In this document: positions 1 to 2,694 of the stretch, piece by piece | How the letters are laid out: every line of letters starts with the position of its first letter | How positions within the stretch are numbered: the first letter of the stretch is position 1 | Source of the DNA: a virus | IMG/VR virus record: IMGVR_UViG_3300006793_004190 | Span: 1-46,895 of that record | Strand: one strand, 5' to 3' | Length of the DNA: 46,895 bases | Translations under genes and position numbers: made by a program | Notes under the pieces: model-generated | The model's input: the letters and a program-made list of their open reading frames with translations, nothing else | Databases searched by the model: none | What the model was told of the DNA's origin: nothing

Positions 1-969
1 AATTGGACCTGTAAATCCAAACAACTCGCCTGCGCTAATAGCATCTTTTACACGTTGTGCTTCTGCTTGTACATCAGCTGGCATATTAGCAAATGGTGCC
101 ATTTGTACAGCACCTTCGTTCATATGTCCAAAGTAATCGCCTGTTTCCCATGTACCGTCTAGTACTTGTCCTACTTTCTTAATGTAGTAAGGACCCCAAT
201 TGTCAATAGTTGCTGTCAATTGTGCATTAGGAGCAAACTTCATTTGATCACTTGCTTGTCCAAATCCAAGTACGCCTGCTTGTTCTGCCGCTTGTAGCGG
301 AGCAGGTGAGTCAGTGTGTTGTGCTACAATGTCACAACCCTGTTGGATCATTGCTACTGCTGCATCTTTTTCTTTGCCTGGATCGTACCATGTGTATACC
401 CAAGTAATTTTTAGGTCTACATCTGGGTTCATTTTCTTTGCACCTAGATAAAATGTGTTAATTTCACGCATAACTTCTGGAATTGGGAATGAAGCAATAT
501 AACAAATTGTATTTGTTTTTGTCATCATGCCAGCAACAATACCTTGTACGTGTCTTGCTTGATATAGTTTCAAGCCATAGTTAGCAGCATTATCTAATTG
601 CTTATAACCTGTAGCATGTTCAAACTTTACGTTTGGAAATTTCTTTGCTACAGCCATCACTGGATCCATATATCCAAATGATGTGGCAAAGATAATGTCT
701 GCACCTTGTAGTGCCATTTGTGTTAGTACACGTTCTGCATCAGCACCTTCTGCTACACTTTCAACAAACGTAGTTTCAACACGATCTCCGTATGCTTCTT
801 CTACTTGTTGACGACCAATATCGTGTCGATATGTCCAGCCGTGGTCACCTGTTGGTCCAACGTAGATGAATCCAACAGTTACTTTATCTTTAGGAGTATC
901 TGCTTGTGCTGACACTGCTAAAGACCCCAACATTAATAATGCTGTGGTAAATATTTTTAATAATTTCAT
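1..969 (-). CDS. BMP-family ABC transporter substrate-binding protein (C-terminus cut by window edge)
   Basis: The 323 visible codons read as a periplasmic binding protein of the basic membrane protein family (PnrA/Med-like), whose members bind nucleosides or related small molecules and hand them to an ABC importer. The N-terminus is a Sec signal peptide (MKLLKIFTTALLMLGSLAVSAQA, shown here only as its first 23 residues in two halves: MKLLKIFTTALLM and LGSLAVSAQA) with an AxA cleavage site and no lipobox Cys. Family-like stretches follow: VGFIYVGPTGDHGWTY near residue 31, and later GADIIFATSFGY and GCDIVAQHTDSPAP. The gene lies downstream of the tmRNA on the same strand with an AAGGAA stretch before the ATG. 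No permease or ATPase is visible, so it would have to serve host ABC subunits. Phages carry PstS-like binding proteins in the sea; a BMP protein is unusual. Ligand is unknown. Confidence 0.85.
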   Translation of the reverse strand, partial: MKLLKIFTTALLMLGSLAVSAQADTPKDKVTVGFIYVGPTGDHGWTYRHDIGRQQVEEAYGDRVETTFVESVAEGADAERVLTQMALQGADIIFATSFGYMDPVMAVAKKFPNVKFEHATGYKQLDNAANYGLKLYQARHVQGIVAGMMTKTNTICYIASFPIPEVMREINTFYLGAKKMNPDVDLKITWVYTWYDPGKEKDAAVAMIQQGCDIVAQHTDSPAPLQAAEQAGVLGFGQASDQMKFAPNAQLTATIDNWGPYYIKKVGQVLDGTWETGDYFGHMNEGAVQMAPFANMPADVQAEAQRVKDAISAGELFGFTGPI

Positions 970-1004
970 TAATAAGGTTTCCTTTGTATTGGCTGTACTT
1001 TAAC

Positions 1005-1315
1005 CTCTATGTTTCAGCCTGCATAGTGTAACGCTTCTGTTGCTAGGTGCGTTACAAACCCCCACTTACCTAATTAGGCAGCTAATGCCATTTCTGGCGC
1101 ATAATTGTTATTTGCAATTATAAAGTTTGTTCGCGGTAACGGCGCTTACATCCCGGTAACTCCATTCATCTATCTTGTCAGTCGATCCTATTTCAGCCCC
1201 ATCATAAGCACACCCTTCAACCTGTGACCAACCTGCTCTTCCAGGATGTGCTTATGGTGGAGCTGCTGGGTACCGCCCCCAGGTCCTGTCCAATCATCAA
1301 ATCACTTCAACGTTA
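1005..1315 (-). ncRNA. ssrA: Circularly permuted two-piece tmRNA (ssrA, alphaproteobacterial type)
   Basis: tmRNA rescues stalled ribosomes and adds a degradation tag. Read on the minus strand, an acceptor piece ends at 1255 with CAGCTCC-A-CCA (1265-1255), preceded by a T-arm (CTGGG...CCCAG, about 1266-1283). A removable loop follows, closed by TAAGCACA/TGTGCTTA. The coding piece starts at 1200 with GGGGCTG, which pairs perfectly (one G-U) with CAGCTCC to rebuild the acceptor stem across the permutation. The tag frame (1115-1074) encodes ANNNYAPEMALAA then TAA, ending in the ALAA expected of ssrA tags. Hairpins GTAACGC/GCGTTAC and CTATG/CATAG close the 3' part. Exact mature ends are estimated. 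A TATAAATA late promoter sits immediately upstream. The permuted form is typical of alphaproteobacteria. Confidence 0.9.
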
Positions 1316-1320
1316 CAGTC

Positions 1321-1328
1321 TATTTATA
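1321..1328 (-). promoter_or_regulatory. T4-type late promoter TATAAATA for the tmRNA
   Basis: Perfect TATAAATA on the minus strand. T4 late promoters place this word at -13 to -6, so transcription would start near 1315, just ahead of the tmRNA acceptor piece. Confidence 0.65.
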
Positions 1329-1408
1329 ACATAGATATGATACTATGTCAATAACTTAATTTTTTTTAAGAAAGACTAAATAGAAACAGTTTACGATATA
1401 ACGATACG
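1329..1408 (+). promoter_or_regulatory. Presumed leader of the synthetase-like gene
   Basis: This divergent gap contains a small hairpin (ACATAG 1329-1334 with CTATGT 1343-1348), a T-rich inverted repeat (CTTAA...TTAAG) and only a weak promoter candidate (TTACAG 1313-1318, 17-nt spacer, TATGAT 1336-1341) overlapping the divergent late promoter. No SD-preceded leader peptide is seen. Confidence 0.3.
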
Positions 1409-1459: not shown

Positions 1460-2302
1460 ATGACTCAACTCATAAACCCACAAAAATTTACAGACACAGT
1501 TGGCCTTTTAAGGTCATTTTTTTTGGCTAAAGGATTCTTAGAAGTCCACACCCAAAACAGACTAAGCATATTAGCGGCTTGCGAAGATCCGTTTAATGTA
1601 GCAACTTACAATTATGCAGACCAAGTTTGGCCACTACCGCAAACAGGCCAGATGTGGTTAGAACATGAATTATTAAGCAAGCCCGATAGTAAGGGCTTTT
1701 TTTGTGTGTCAACGAGTTATAGACAAGAACCAAATGCTATACCAGGTAGACACGATATTATCTTCCCTATGTTTGAGTTTGAGATGCCTGGCGATGTTAA
1801 CGACCTTAAAGCAATGGAGTATGAGCTGTGTGAATACTTGGGCTTTGATCCATTAACAGAAAAAACTTACAGAGAATGGCAACAACATTGGGGTGTAAGT
1901 GCTGATGTTGAAATGGATGACAGTCACGAAAAAGGTATGGAAATGAACTTTGGTAGTTGTTTAATTACAGACTTCCCAGAACTAACATCACCTTTCTGGA
2001 ATATGGCACGTAACGATGATGGCAACACTGCTAAAAAGATGGACGTTATACTAGGTGGTATGGAAACTATTGGATCAGCAGAGCGTAGTTGTGATGTTGA
2101 TATGATGCGTGATACATTCCACAGTATTGTAGACGGCGAGTATGCACAGTTACTATACAAACTGTTTGGTAAAGAACGTGTGGAAGCAGAACTAGAAGAG
2201 TTCCTAAAATTTGACTTCTTTCCTAGAGTAGGCGGCGGTATTGGTATGACAAGAATGATTGCGGCACTGGACAAACAAGGAAAGATTGCCCTGGCTGCAT
2301 AA
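1460..2302 (+). CDS. Class II synthetase core protein, AsnRS/AspRS/AsnA-like, without anticodon domain
   Basis: 280 aa from ATG 1460, preceded by GAAAAAGGAAAA; an earlier in-frame start lacks an SD and overlaps the terminator. The protein is a bare class II catalytic core of the Asp/Asn/Lys group. Motif 2 is SYRQEPN with R88 and E90 followed by FPMFEFE; DFPELTSPF is at 171-179, GGMETIGSAER at 199-209, and motif 3 GGGIGMTR at 258-265 carries the conserved Arg. The N-terminal OB-fold anticodon-binding domain of true AsnRS/AspRS is absent. Size and layout match the archaeal AsnRS-related asparagine synthetase (about 290 aa); EpmA is another anticodon-domain-free relative. A tRNA with an Asn anticodon begins 5 nt after the stop, so charging of that tRNA or asparagine production are both open. 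The C-terminus reads IALAA, like an ssrA degron. Confidence 0.85.
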   Translation: MTQLINPQKFTDTVGLLRSFFLAKGFLEVHTQNRLSILAACEDPFNVATYNYADQVWPLPQTGQMWLEHELLSKPDSKGFFCVSTSYRQEPNAIPGRHDIIFPMFEFEMPGDVNDLKAMEYELCEYLGFDPLTEKTYREWQQHWGVSADVEMDDSHEKGMEMNFGSCLITDFPELTSPFWNMARNDDGNTAKKMDVILGGMETIGSAERSCDVDMMRDTFHSIVDGEYAQLLYKLFGKERVEAELEEFLKFDFFPRVGGGIGMTRMIAALDKQGKIALAA

Positions 2303-2307
2303 ATTGA

Positions 2308-2409
2308 TCCAGGGTGGTGAAATTGGTAGACACGCACGACTGTTTATCGTGTGGTTAATAGCTCGCAAAGTATTTAACCGTGGAGGTTCGAATCCTCCCC
2401 CTGGAGCCA
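2308..2409 (+). tRNA. Unusual tRNA: leucine-type body, anticodon GUU (Asn), long variable arm
   Basis: 102 nt including an encoded CCA. Acceptor TCCAGGG (2308-2314) pairs with CCCTGGA (2399-2405). D-arm GTG/CAC with AAATTGGTAGA matches tRNA-Leu. Anticodon stem CACGA/TCGTG (2335-2339/2347-2351) encloses loop CTGTTTA, giving anticodon GTT (2342-2344) and an unusual U37. A variable region of about 30 nt contains a 6-bp stem GGTTAA/TTAACC. T-arm GGAGG-TTCGAAT-CCTCC is canonical. The discriminator is G73, as in tRNA-Asn and unlike tRNA-Leu (A73). Long variable arms normally mark Leu, Ser and Tyr tRNAs, so this is a Leu scaffold with Asn identity elements, directly after a synthetase-like gene. Confidence 0.85.
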
Positions 2410-2451
2410 AAAAAAGTAAAAAAAGTGCTTGACTTACTGAAAAGATTACTG

Positions 2452-2459
2452 TATAAATA
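2452..2459 (+). promoter_or_regulatory. Late promoter TATAAATA for the Trp peptide/tRNA unit
   Basis: Perfect plus-strand TATAAATA, predicting a start near 2465, about 17 nt ahead of the AUG of the 18-aa peptide. Confidence 0.6.
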
Positions 2460-2481
2460 TAAGTATAACAAAGGAGTTAAT

Positions 2482-2538
2482 ATGTTACAAGGAATGTACA
2501 AACCAAGTTGGTGTCCAGGAAACTGGGGTATGCCTTGA
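2482..2538 (+). CDS. 18-aa peptide with two Trp codons (possible leader peptide)
   Basis: ATG at 2482 is preceded at good spacing by a consensus AAGGAG. The product is MLQGMYKPSWCPGNWGMP. Two of 18 residues are Trp, with three Pro, three Gly and one Cys. A strong terminator begins 29 nt after the stop, and tRNA-Trp(CCA) lies about 155 nt downstream. This resembles a transcription-attenuation leader peptide, although the Trp codons are not adjacent. A small structural or signalling peptide is the alternative. The late promoter and good SD argue that it is translated. Confidence 0.65.
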   Translation: MLQGMYKPSWCPGNWGMP

Positions 2539-2567
2539 TGTGACTTCTTAACGAACTTACTCATTGC

Positions 2568-2602
2568 AAGCCCTGTAGTAGAAATGTTACGGGGCTTTTT
2601 TT
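2568..2602 (+). terminator. Strong intrinsic terminator between the 18-aa ORF and tRNA-Trp
   Basis: Ten base pairs (2568-2577 with 2588-2597, one G-U) enclose a 10-nt loop and are followed by a T run to 2602. Full termination here would shut off the downstream RNAs unless they have their own promoter or are reached by readthrough. Confidence 0.8.
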
Positions 2603-2605
2603 ATG

Positions 2606-2679
2606 ACTACACTACGCCTTACTGCAATAAGGTGTCTTTGCAGAGACAGAGACCTCGAAAGGGTCAAAGATAGTGTAGT
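2606..2679 (+). ncRNA. Cloverleaf-like structured RNA of unknown class
   Basis: Closing stem ACTACACTA/TAGTGTAGT (9 bp, 2606-2614/2671-2679). Three perfect hairpins sit inside: CCTTA-CTGCAA-TAAGG (2617-2632), TGTCT-TTGCAG-AGACA (2633-2648) and GACC-TCGAAAG-GGTC (2651-2665), the last resembling a T-arm with a 7-nt loop. An alternative pairing TCTTTG/CAAAGA (2635-2640/2665-2670) is mutually exclusive with two of them. It sits between a terminator and tRNA-Trp. No encoded CCA and no normal anticodon loop are present. It may be a degenerate tRNA, a tRNA-like processing substrate or a regulatory RNA. Confidence 0.55.
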
Positions 2680-2694
2680 TTTAAAAAAAGTTAT

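Follow-up and report, generated by a model that had tools for sequence, protein, structure and literature searches.

Which polymerase transcribes a tmRNA gene that is carried by a phage, and at which phase of the infection, is the question raised by the left end of the IMG/VR record IMGVR_UViG_3300006793_004190, a stretch of 46,895 nucleotides that we analysed as a whole and refer to as the window (features in Table 1). The gene is a permuted tmRNA of alphaproteobacterial type on the minus strand, with a precursor running from about 1316 to 1025. The Rfam model RF01849 (alpha_tmRNA) matches over its full length at 1355-1025 (-) with 134.3 bits (E=1.3e-36; gathering cut-off 50), RF04321 (tmRNA_permuted) gives 118.2 bits (cut-off 47), and ARAGORN calls a permuted tmRNA at 983-1347 (-) with the tag ANNNYAPEMALAA. 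The order of the parts is permuted, the acceptor piece with its CCA coming first, followed by the excisable segment and then by the coding piece. The T-arm (CUGGG-GGCGGUA-CCCAG) and the 3' strand of the acceptor stem (CAGCUCC, then ACCA) occupy 1286-1255 (-) up to the encoded CCA, the coding piece begins with GGGGCUG at 1200 (-), and the acceptor stem GGGGCUG/CAGCUCC includes G3-U70, the alanine identity pair; the tag frame has a stop and a hydrophobic end of the LAA type. As far as can be read from the sequence, every testable hallmark of function is present. A preliminary description of this DNA had listed acceptor stem, T-arm, removable loop, tag and CCA as parts of a working-looking two-piece tmRNA, with which Rfam and ARAGORN agree, and the search with the permuted alphaproteobacterial covariance model that it proposed is the RF01849 match given above.

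Table 1. Features of the tmRNA locus and its two neighbours in the window
Feature	Position	Strand	Basis and remarks
TTGACA, -35 box of the hybrid promoter	1346..1351	-	sequence, pattern search
TGT immediately ahead of the box (TG of the extended -10 type)	1329..1331	-	sequence
TATAAATA, both a T4-type late box and a sigma70-type -10 (TATAAA)	1321..1328	-	sequence; ATAAATA, the late-type motif, over-represented before ORFs of the phage group
Acceptor piece of the tmRNA, with T-arm, 3' strand of the acceptor stem and CCA	1255..1316	-	5' end 1315/1316 predicted; Rfam and sequence
Excisable intervening segment, 12-bp closing stem	1201..1254	-	fold and Rfam alignment
Coding piece of the tmRNA	1025..1200	-	3' end approximate, taken from the Rfam match
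Tag reading frame ANNNYAPEMALAA and stop	1074..1115	-	ARAGORN and sequence
BMP/PnrA-like substrate-binding protein gene	1..969	-	PF02608, E=1.7e-47; reaches the window's left end; downstream of the tmRNA
AsnRS-like class II synthetase core, divergent	1460..2299	+	PF00152, phrog_29758; conserved right neighbour of the tmRNA

The preliminary description also placed a T4-type late promoter at the start of the gene and tied the tmRNA to the late programme of the phage. The octamer TATAAATA does stand there, is an exact T4 consensus octamer and is a box of the late type in this phage group, but the tie to the late programme is unsupported, because TTGACA, missing from that account, stands at 1351-1346, exactly 17 nt upstream of TATAAATA, and together with the TG makes the box equally a host sigma70 promoter. 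TTGACA-N17-TATAAA agrees with 11 of the 12 sigma70 consensus bases at a spacing of 17 nt, and its sole mismatch is an A where TATAAT ends in T, as the T4 late box requires. The predicted starts are 1316 for sigma70 (-10 hexamer at -12 to -7) and 1315 for the late box (at -13 to -6), and TATAAATA lies 5-6 nt ahead of the predicted first base, about one helical turn. The octamer alone was rejected as evidence, since its nine copies in the window against 6.1 expected are not significant; what counts is its position, the -35 box and conservation.

Specificity was examined in phage DNA, 2.84 Mb in total, that had been collected for similarity to the tmRNA, BMP or AsnRS-like sequences and not by promoter. 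Of the 79 TTGACW-N17-TATAAATA copies in this DNA, 71 stand before a tmRNA (67 by scoring and four by eye, at L184, L192, L213 and L251), whereas a tmRNA lies behind only 3 of the 205 copies of TTGACW-N17-TATA[ACT]T, absolute fractions that are inflated by loci partly picked for their tmRNAs, although both -10 classes were compared within one and the same DNA. The hybrid is thus linked to tmRNAs near-exclusively here (71/8 vs 3/202; Fisher test, P = 1e-53, which like the other P values is nominal because the contigs share ancestry and sometimes sampling programmes). Among 132 distinct tmRNA upstream regions, 92 have NATAAATA at 24-48 nt before the T-arm and 40 are without the box. These 92 tmRNA boxes and 59 ORF late boxes (from the window and its relatives G155 and G156) were chosen alike, only by the seven bases ATAAATA; TTGACW stands at exactly N17 before 64 of the tmRNA boxes, being absent at 28, and before none of the 59 ORF late boxes, and the first base of the box is T in 87/92 vs 12/59. 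The box is preceded by TGT, TGG or TGC in 48 of the 92 phage tmRNA promoters. Because the 17-nt spacers average only 35% identity, it is evident that both boxes were held while the sequence between them drifted.

Nine tmRNA-bearing virus records together contain the hybrid (TTGACN form) 12 times, with 8 of the copies at the tmRNA, and the reversed pattern 0 times; eight of the nine records have the hybrid at the tmRNA, the exception being G157, with a tmRNA but no hybrid. In an unselected scan of IMG/VR a tmRNA was found behind 26 of 118 hybrid hits at spacing 17 (strict signature, 17/107) and behind 4 of 121 in the spacing-20 control (strict, 1/110), so that the hybrid is strongly linked to phage tmRNAs yet is found elsewhere too. 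In the same scan, L456, L465, L471, L474, L479, L483, L498, L527 and L547 have TTGACA-N17-TATAAATA with a short strong hairpin within about 10 nt, e.g. TGTAGATGCC...GGGGTCTACA.

The late half of the element has its own signal in these phages. In the 60 nt ahead of ORFs, ATAAATA ranks with the most over-represented heptamers, at 13.6-fold in the window and 15.9-fold in each of G156 and G155. In G156, a relative of 187 kb (loci L413-L422), just 2 of the 37 late-type boxes of ORFs read TATAAATA, GATAAATA being usual among the boxes printed, and the first base of the ORF boxes there is evidently lineage-specific; its tmRNA box is TATAAATA, unlike most of its ORF boxes. A gp55-like gene is present in G156 (36% over 89 aa) and was not found in the window or in G155, both of which are fragments. 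A search for TATAAATA upstream of core T4 genes located by P-SSM7 proteins was mostly negative, with starts too approximate, and the ORF-wide count was used instead.

The main argument for dual use of the promoter is that the leading T suits sigma70 and the trailing ATA suits the late sigma. It is somewhat likelier than the contrary that many T4-like marine phages drive their tmRNA from an overlapping promoter, read by host sigma70 first and by the phage late sigma later, with nearly the same start, which would uncouple ribosome rescue from the early-late switch. For the window we think it reasonably probable that a complete two-piece tmRNA in a T4-like marine phage is transcribed early by the host enzyme and late by a gp55-type polymerase from the overlapping box, with host processing, charging and SmpB. 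Points on the other side are G157, whose tmRNA lacks the hybrid, the 28 boxed tmRNA upstream regions that have no TTGACW at N17, the 40 tmRNAs without the box, the low share of hybrid hits (26 of 118) leading into a tmRNA in the unselected scan, and the gp55 gene not found in the window. A conserved -10 variant could instead serve sigma70 alone, TATAAATA having been retained for its effect on strength or start site, with the tmRNA an early RNA and the match to the late box a coincidence. The -35 box, the 17-nt spacing and the TG extension are all sigma70 features, and the paper on the cultured phage Melnitz reports an early promoter there (PMC9004378). We nevertheless regard this reading as rather unlikely, since the sixth -10 base is T in 457 of 673 TTGACA-N17-TANNNNNN sites without a tmRNA (a set that includes promoter-selected loci) and A in the hybrids, and since the following bases TA are kept as well and with this A make up the late box, a motif that is over-represented ahead of ORFs of these genomes; the -10 form TATA[ACT]T, as shown above, rarely leads into a tmRNA.

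That the gene has a late promoter only, with TTGACA incidental, as the preliminary description held, agrees with the exact consensus octamer and with the late-type motif of the phage group. It is very improbable in view of the -35 box at exactly N17, which the ORF late boxes lack and which is not conserved in T4 late promoters (PMC2988020), and of the first-base T, for which the ORF late boxes show no bias.

If both sigma factors use the promoter, host polymerase would make the precursor early in infection from TTGACA-N17-TATAAA with its TG extension, and a gp55-type phage polymerase would initiate late at the overlapping TATAAATA, the two starts (1315/1316) being almost identical. Host RNases would then cut out the segment 1254-1201 to leave two pieces, host alanyl-tRNA synthetase would charge the tmRNA via G3-U70, and host SmpB would deliver it to ribosomes stalled on broken mRNA, where the LAA-ending tag would direct the tagged products to proteolysis. 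With a double promoter, rescue capacity would persist late in infection, while transcription of host genes, ssrA among them, is shut down. We infer that both promoter halves would be used and that the tmRNA would be processed, charged and functional. If this is true, the phage would need tmRNA throughout infection, including after host genes have fallen silent, which points to a lasting need for ribosome rescue on broken mRNA, and one site readable by two very different sigma factors would be a compact route to constant expression in a sigma-switching phage.

G3-U70 is present in 128/128 phage tmRNAs found by a T-arm and acceptor pattern, a set that takes in loci fetched by promoter too. Their T-stems occur in many matched versions, among them CCGGG/CCCGG, CUGGG/CCCAG and GAGGG/CCCUC, and so do their acceptor stems, among them GGGGGCG/CGCCUCC, GGGGUCG/CGACUCC and GGGCGAG/CUCGUCC; as the pattern demanded full T-stem pairing and 6/7 acceptor pairs, this is variety among matched stems and no test against unpaired ones. 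An ending L/I/M/V-A-A is found in 78 of 83 phage tags. The suggestion that the tag may differ from that of the host holds to the extent that ANNNYAPEMALAA is unlike all 23 distinct tags from 32 alphaproteobacterial tmRNAs, which may not include the host's. Identification of the host through the tag was dropped, there being no tag common to the 71 distinct phage tags and the 23 alphaproteobacterial tags. A tmRNA is present in 9 of the 11 virus records searched (47-316 kb), and SmpB was found in none of the 11, by which a phage-encoded SmpB was rejected. The tmRNA might be non-functional or a decoy, that is, a captured host fragment that is uncharged or titrates SmpB; the absence of SmpB from these records and the divergence of the phage RNA (134 bits vs about 260-310 for the best-scoring alphaproteobacterial copies) would fit, but the intact G3-U70 and CCA, the many matched stem versions, the LAA-type tag ends across divergent phages and the conserved dedicated promoter leave this little credence.

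BLAST of the tmRNA against phage isolates hit only distant roseobacter, rhodobacter and rhizobium phages and one unannotated faecal phage record. The permuted tmRNAs of L117, L118, L119, L120, L123 and L137 were missed by ARAGORN and found by Rfam RF01849/RF04321 at 70-132 bits; surveys of phage tmRNAs based on ARAGORN therefore undercount them.

The window, a genome fragment, is an IMG/VR record with nrdA/nrdB, a gp41-like helicase, a phage DNA primase and a uvsW-like helicase. The phages with a T4-type gp23 include G154, G156, G157, G163 and Melnitz, and the relative G155 has gp17-, gp18-, gp44- and uvsX-like genes. The order BMP - tmRNA - AsnRS-like is found again in contigs of other metagenomes (L012/L013, L014, L022, L127, L128 and L129), of which L013 and L128 derive from contigs of 133 and 134 kb, and also in L120, L123 and L137, whose tmRNAs were among those that ARAGORN misses; relatives of the AsnRS-like gene are found in P-SSM7 and P-SSM2. 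Because the gene order recurs in this way, the tmRNA is, on the evidence of synteny, phage-borne and no assembly artefact, in line with the view of the preliminary description that it is not stray host DNA, and the host-phage assembly junction named there as the finding that would speak against it is contradicted. That the left end of the contig is an assembly chimaera or stray host DNA, as the host-like BMP gene without PHROG match might suggest, is hardly credible and was rejected, the junction not being unique to this contig and the tmRNA of 12 BMP-bearing genomes, where found, not being reported at the BMP gene (contig identity not checked singly).

The BMP gene is probably co-transcribed with the tmRNA, because it lies on the same strand and no terminator-like site was found between the two on the minus strand. 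Its product is of the periplasmic type with a signal-peptide-like start, and the gene occurs in viral contigs of up to 316 kb; it may be an auxiliary gene for uptake that shares a transcript with the tmRNA. The closest BMP in the genome collection (83%) is from a Planktomarina MAG, merely a hint at the host.

The tmRNA belongs to an already published kind, and what is new is the conserved dual-code promoter. Two-piece tmRNAs are described in PMC9004378 for Methylophilales phage Melnitz and Pelagibacter phage Mosig, alongside a survey of isolates that counted 53 two-piece structures; as in the window, these two are T4-like marine phages with a permuted tmRNA of alphaproteobacterial type. In Melnitz the tmRNA is immediately preceded by TTGACA-N17-TATAAATA, the same element as in the window, and the phage has been cultured, so that the timing is directly testable. 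The Melnitz tmRNA lies upstream of a late-transcription coactivator gene, whereas that of the window has BMP behind, and the glutamine riboswitch reported by the Melnitz authors (PMC9004378) is a further difference. They placed an early promoter before the tmRNA and proposed early action, and the passages found contain no mention of an overlapping late box (PMC9004378). No report of the hybrid promoter, of an overlapping late box or of its conservation was found in the literature searched, of which coverage was partial.

With the two-piece tmRNA of alphaproteobacteria (RF01849; Caulobacter type) the window copy shares the permuted order, the T-arm type, G3-U70, the encoded CCA and an AN-initial tag with an LAA-type end; it differs by its divergence, by the lack of a common tag and by its promoter, since among 32 alphaproteobacterial tmRNA genes TATAAATA was found in none, a sigma70 match of at least 10/12 in none and the hybrid in none. 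To the T4 late promoter (gp55/gp33/gp45) it is linked by the exact octamer about one turn before the start and by the enrichment of the motif upstream of ORFs in relatives, and the conserved -35 box at 17 nt sets the phage tmRNA promoter apart from it. The six gp23-negative phage isolates MD18, DSS3_MAL1, DSS3P8, RcXuper, Cp1R7A-A1 and RcSimone-Hastad have a permuted tmRNA as here, but the hybrid promoter was found in 0/6.

Some further elements were observed to the right of the tmRNA. The AsnRS-like core (280 aa; the NCBIfam asnS match is weak and far below cut-off) lies within 1460-2409 (+), and 8 nt behind it is a 102-nt tRNA with a long variable arm, a Leu-like D-arm, the anticodon loop CTGTTTA (GUU, Asn) and G73, miscalled Asp(atc) by ARAGORN. 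A similar GUU tRNA of 83-113 nt follows the AsnRS-like gene in most loci that have this gene, and P-SSM7 and P-SSM2 also have such a tRNA, without encoded CCA; the gene and the tRNA look like a private synthetase/tRNA pair. A second element of this form, TTGACT-N17-TATAAATA, is located at 2429-2459 (+), ahead of a tiny ORF (MLQGMYKPSWCPGNWGMP) and a terminator-like hairpin. An Rfam search of 2410-2700 gave no known RNA above the gathering score. After the hairpin (window 2429-2690 +) there is an element closed by ACTACACTA/TAGTGTAGT, then tRNA-Trp and tRNA-Pro. The layout in L008 is as at 2429-2690, with a different -10 and with a closing stem that is changed but still matching (GCACACTA/TAGTGTGT).
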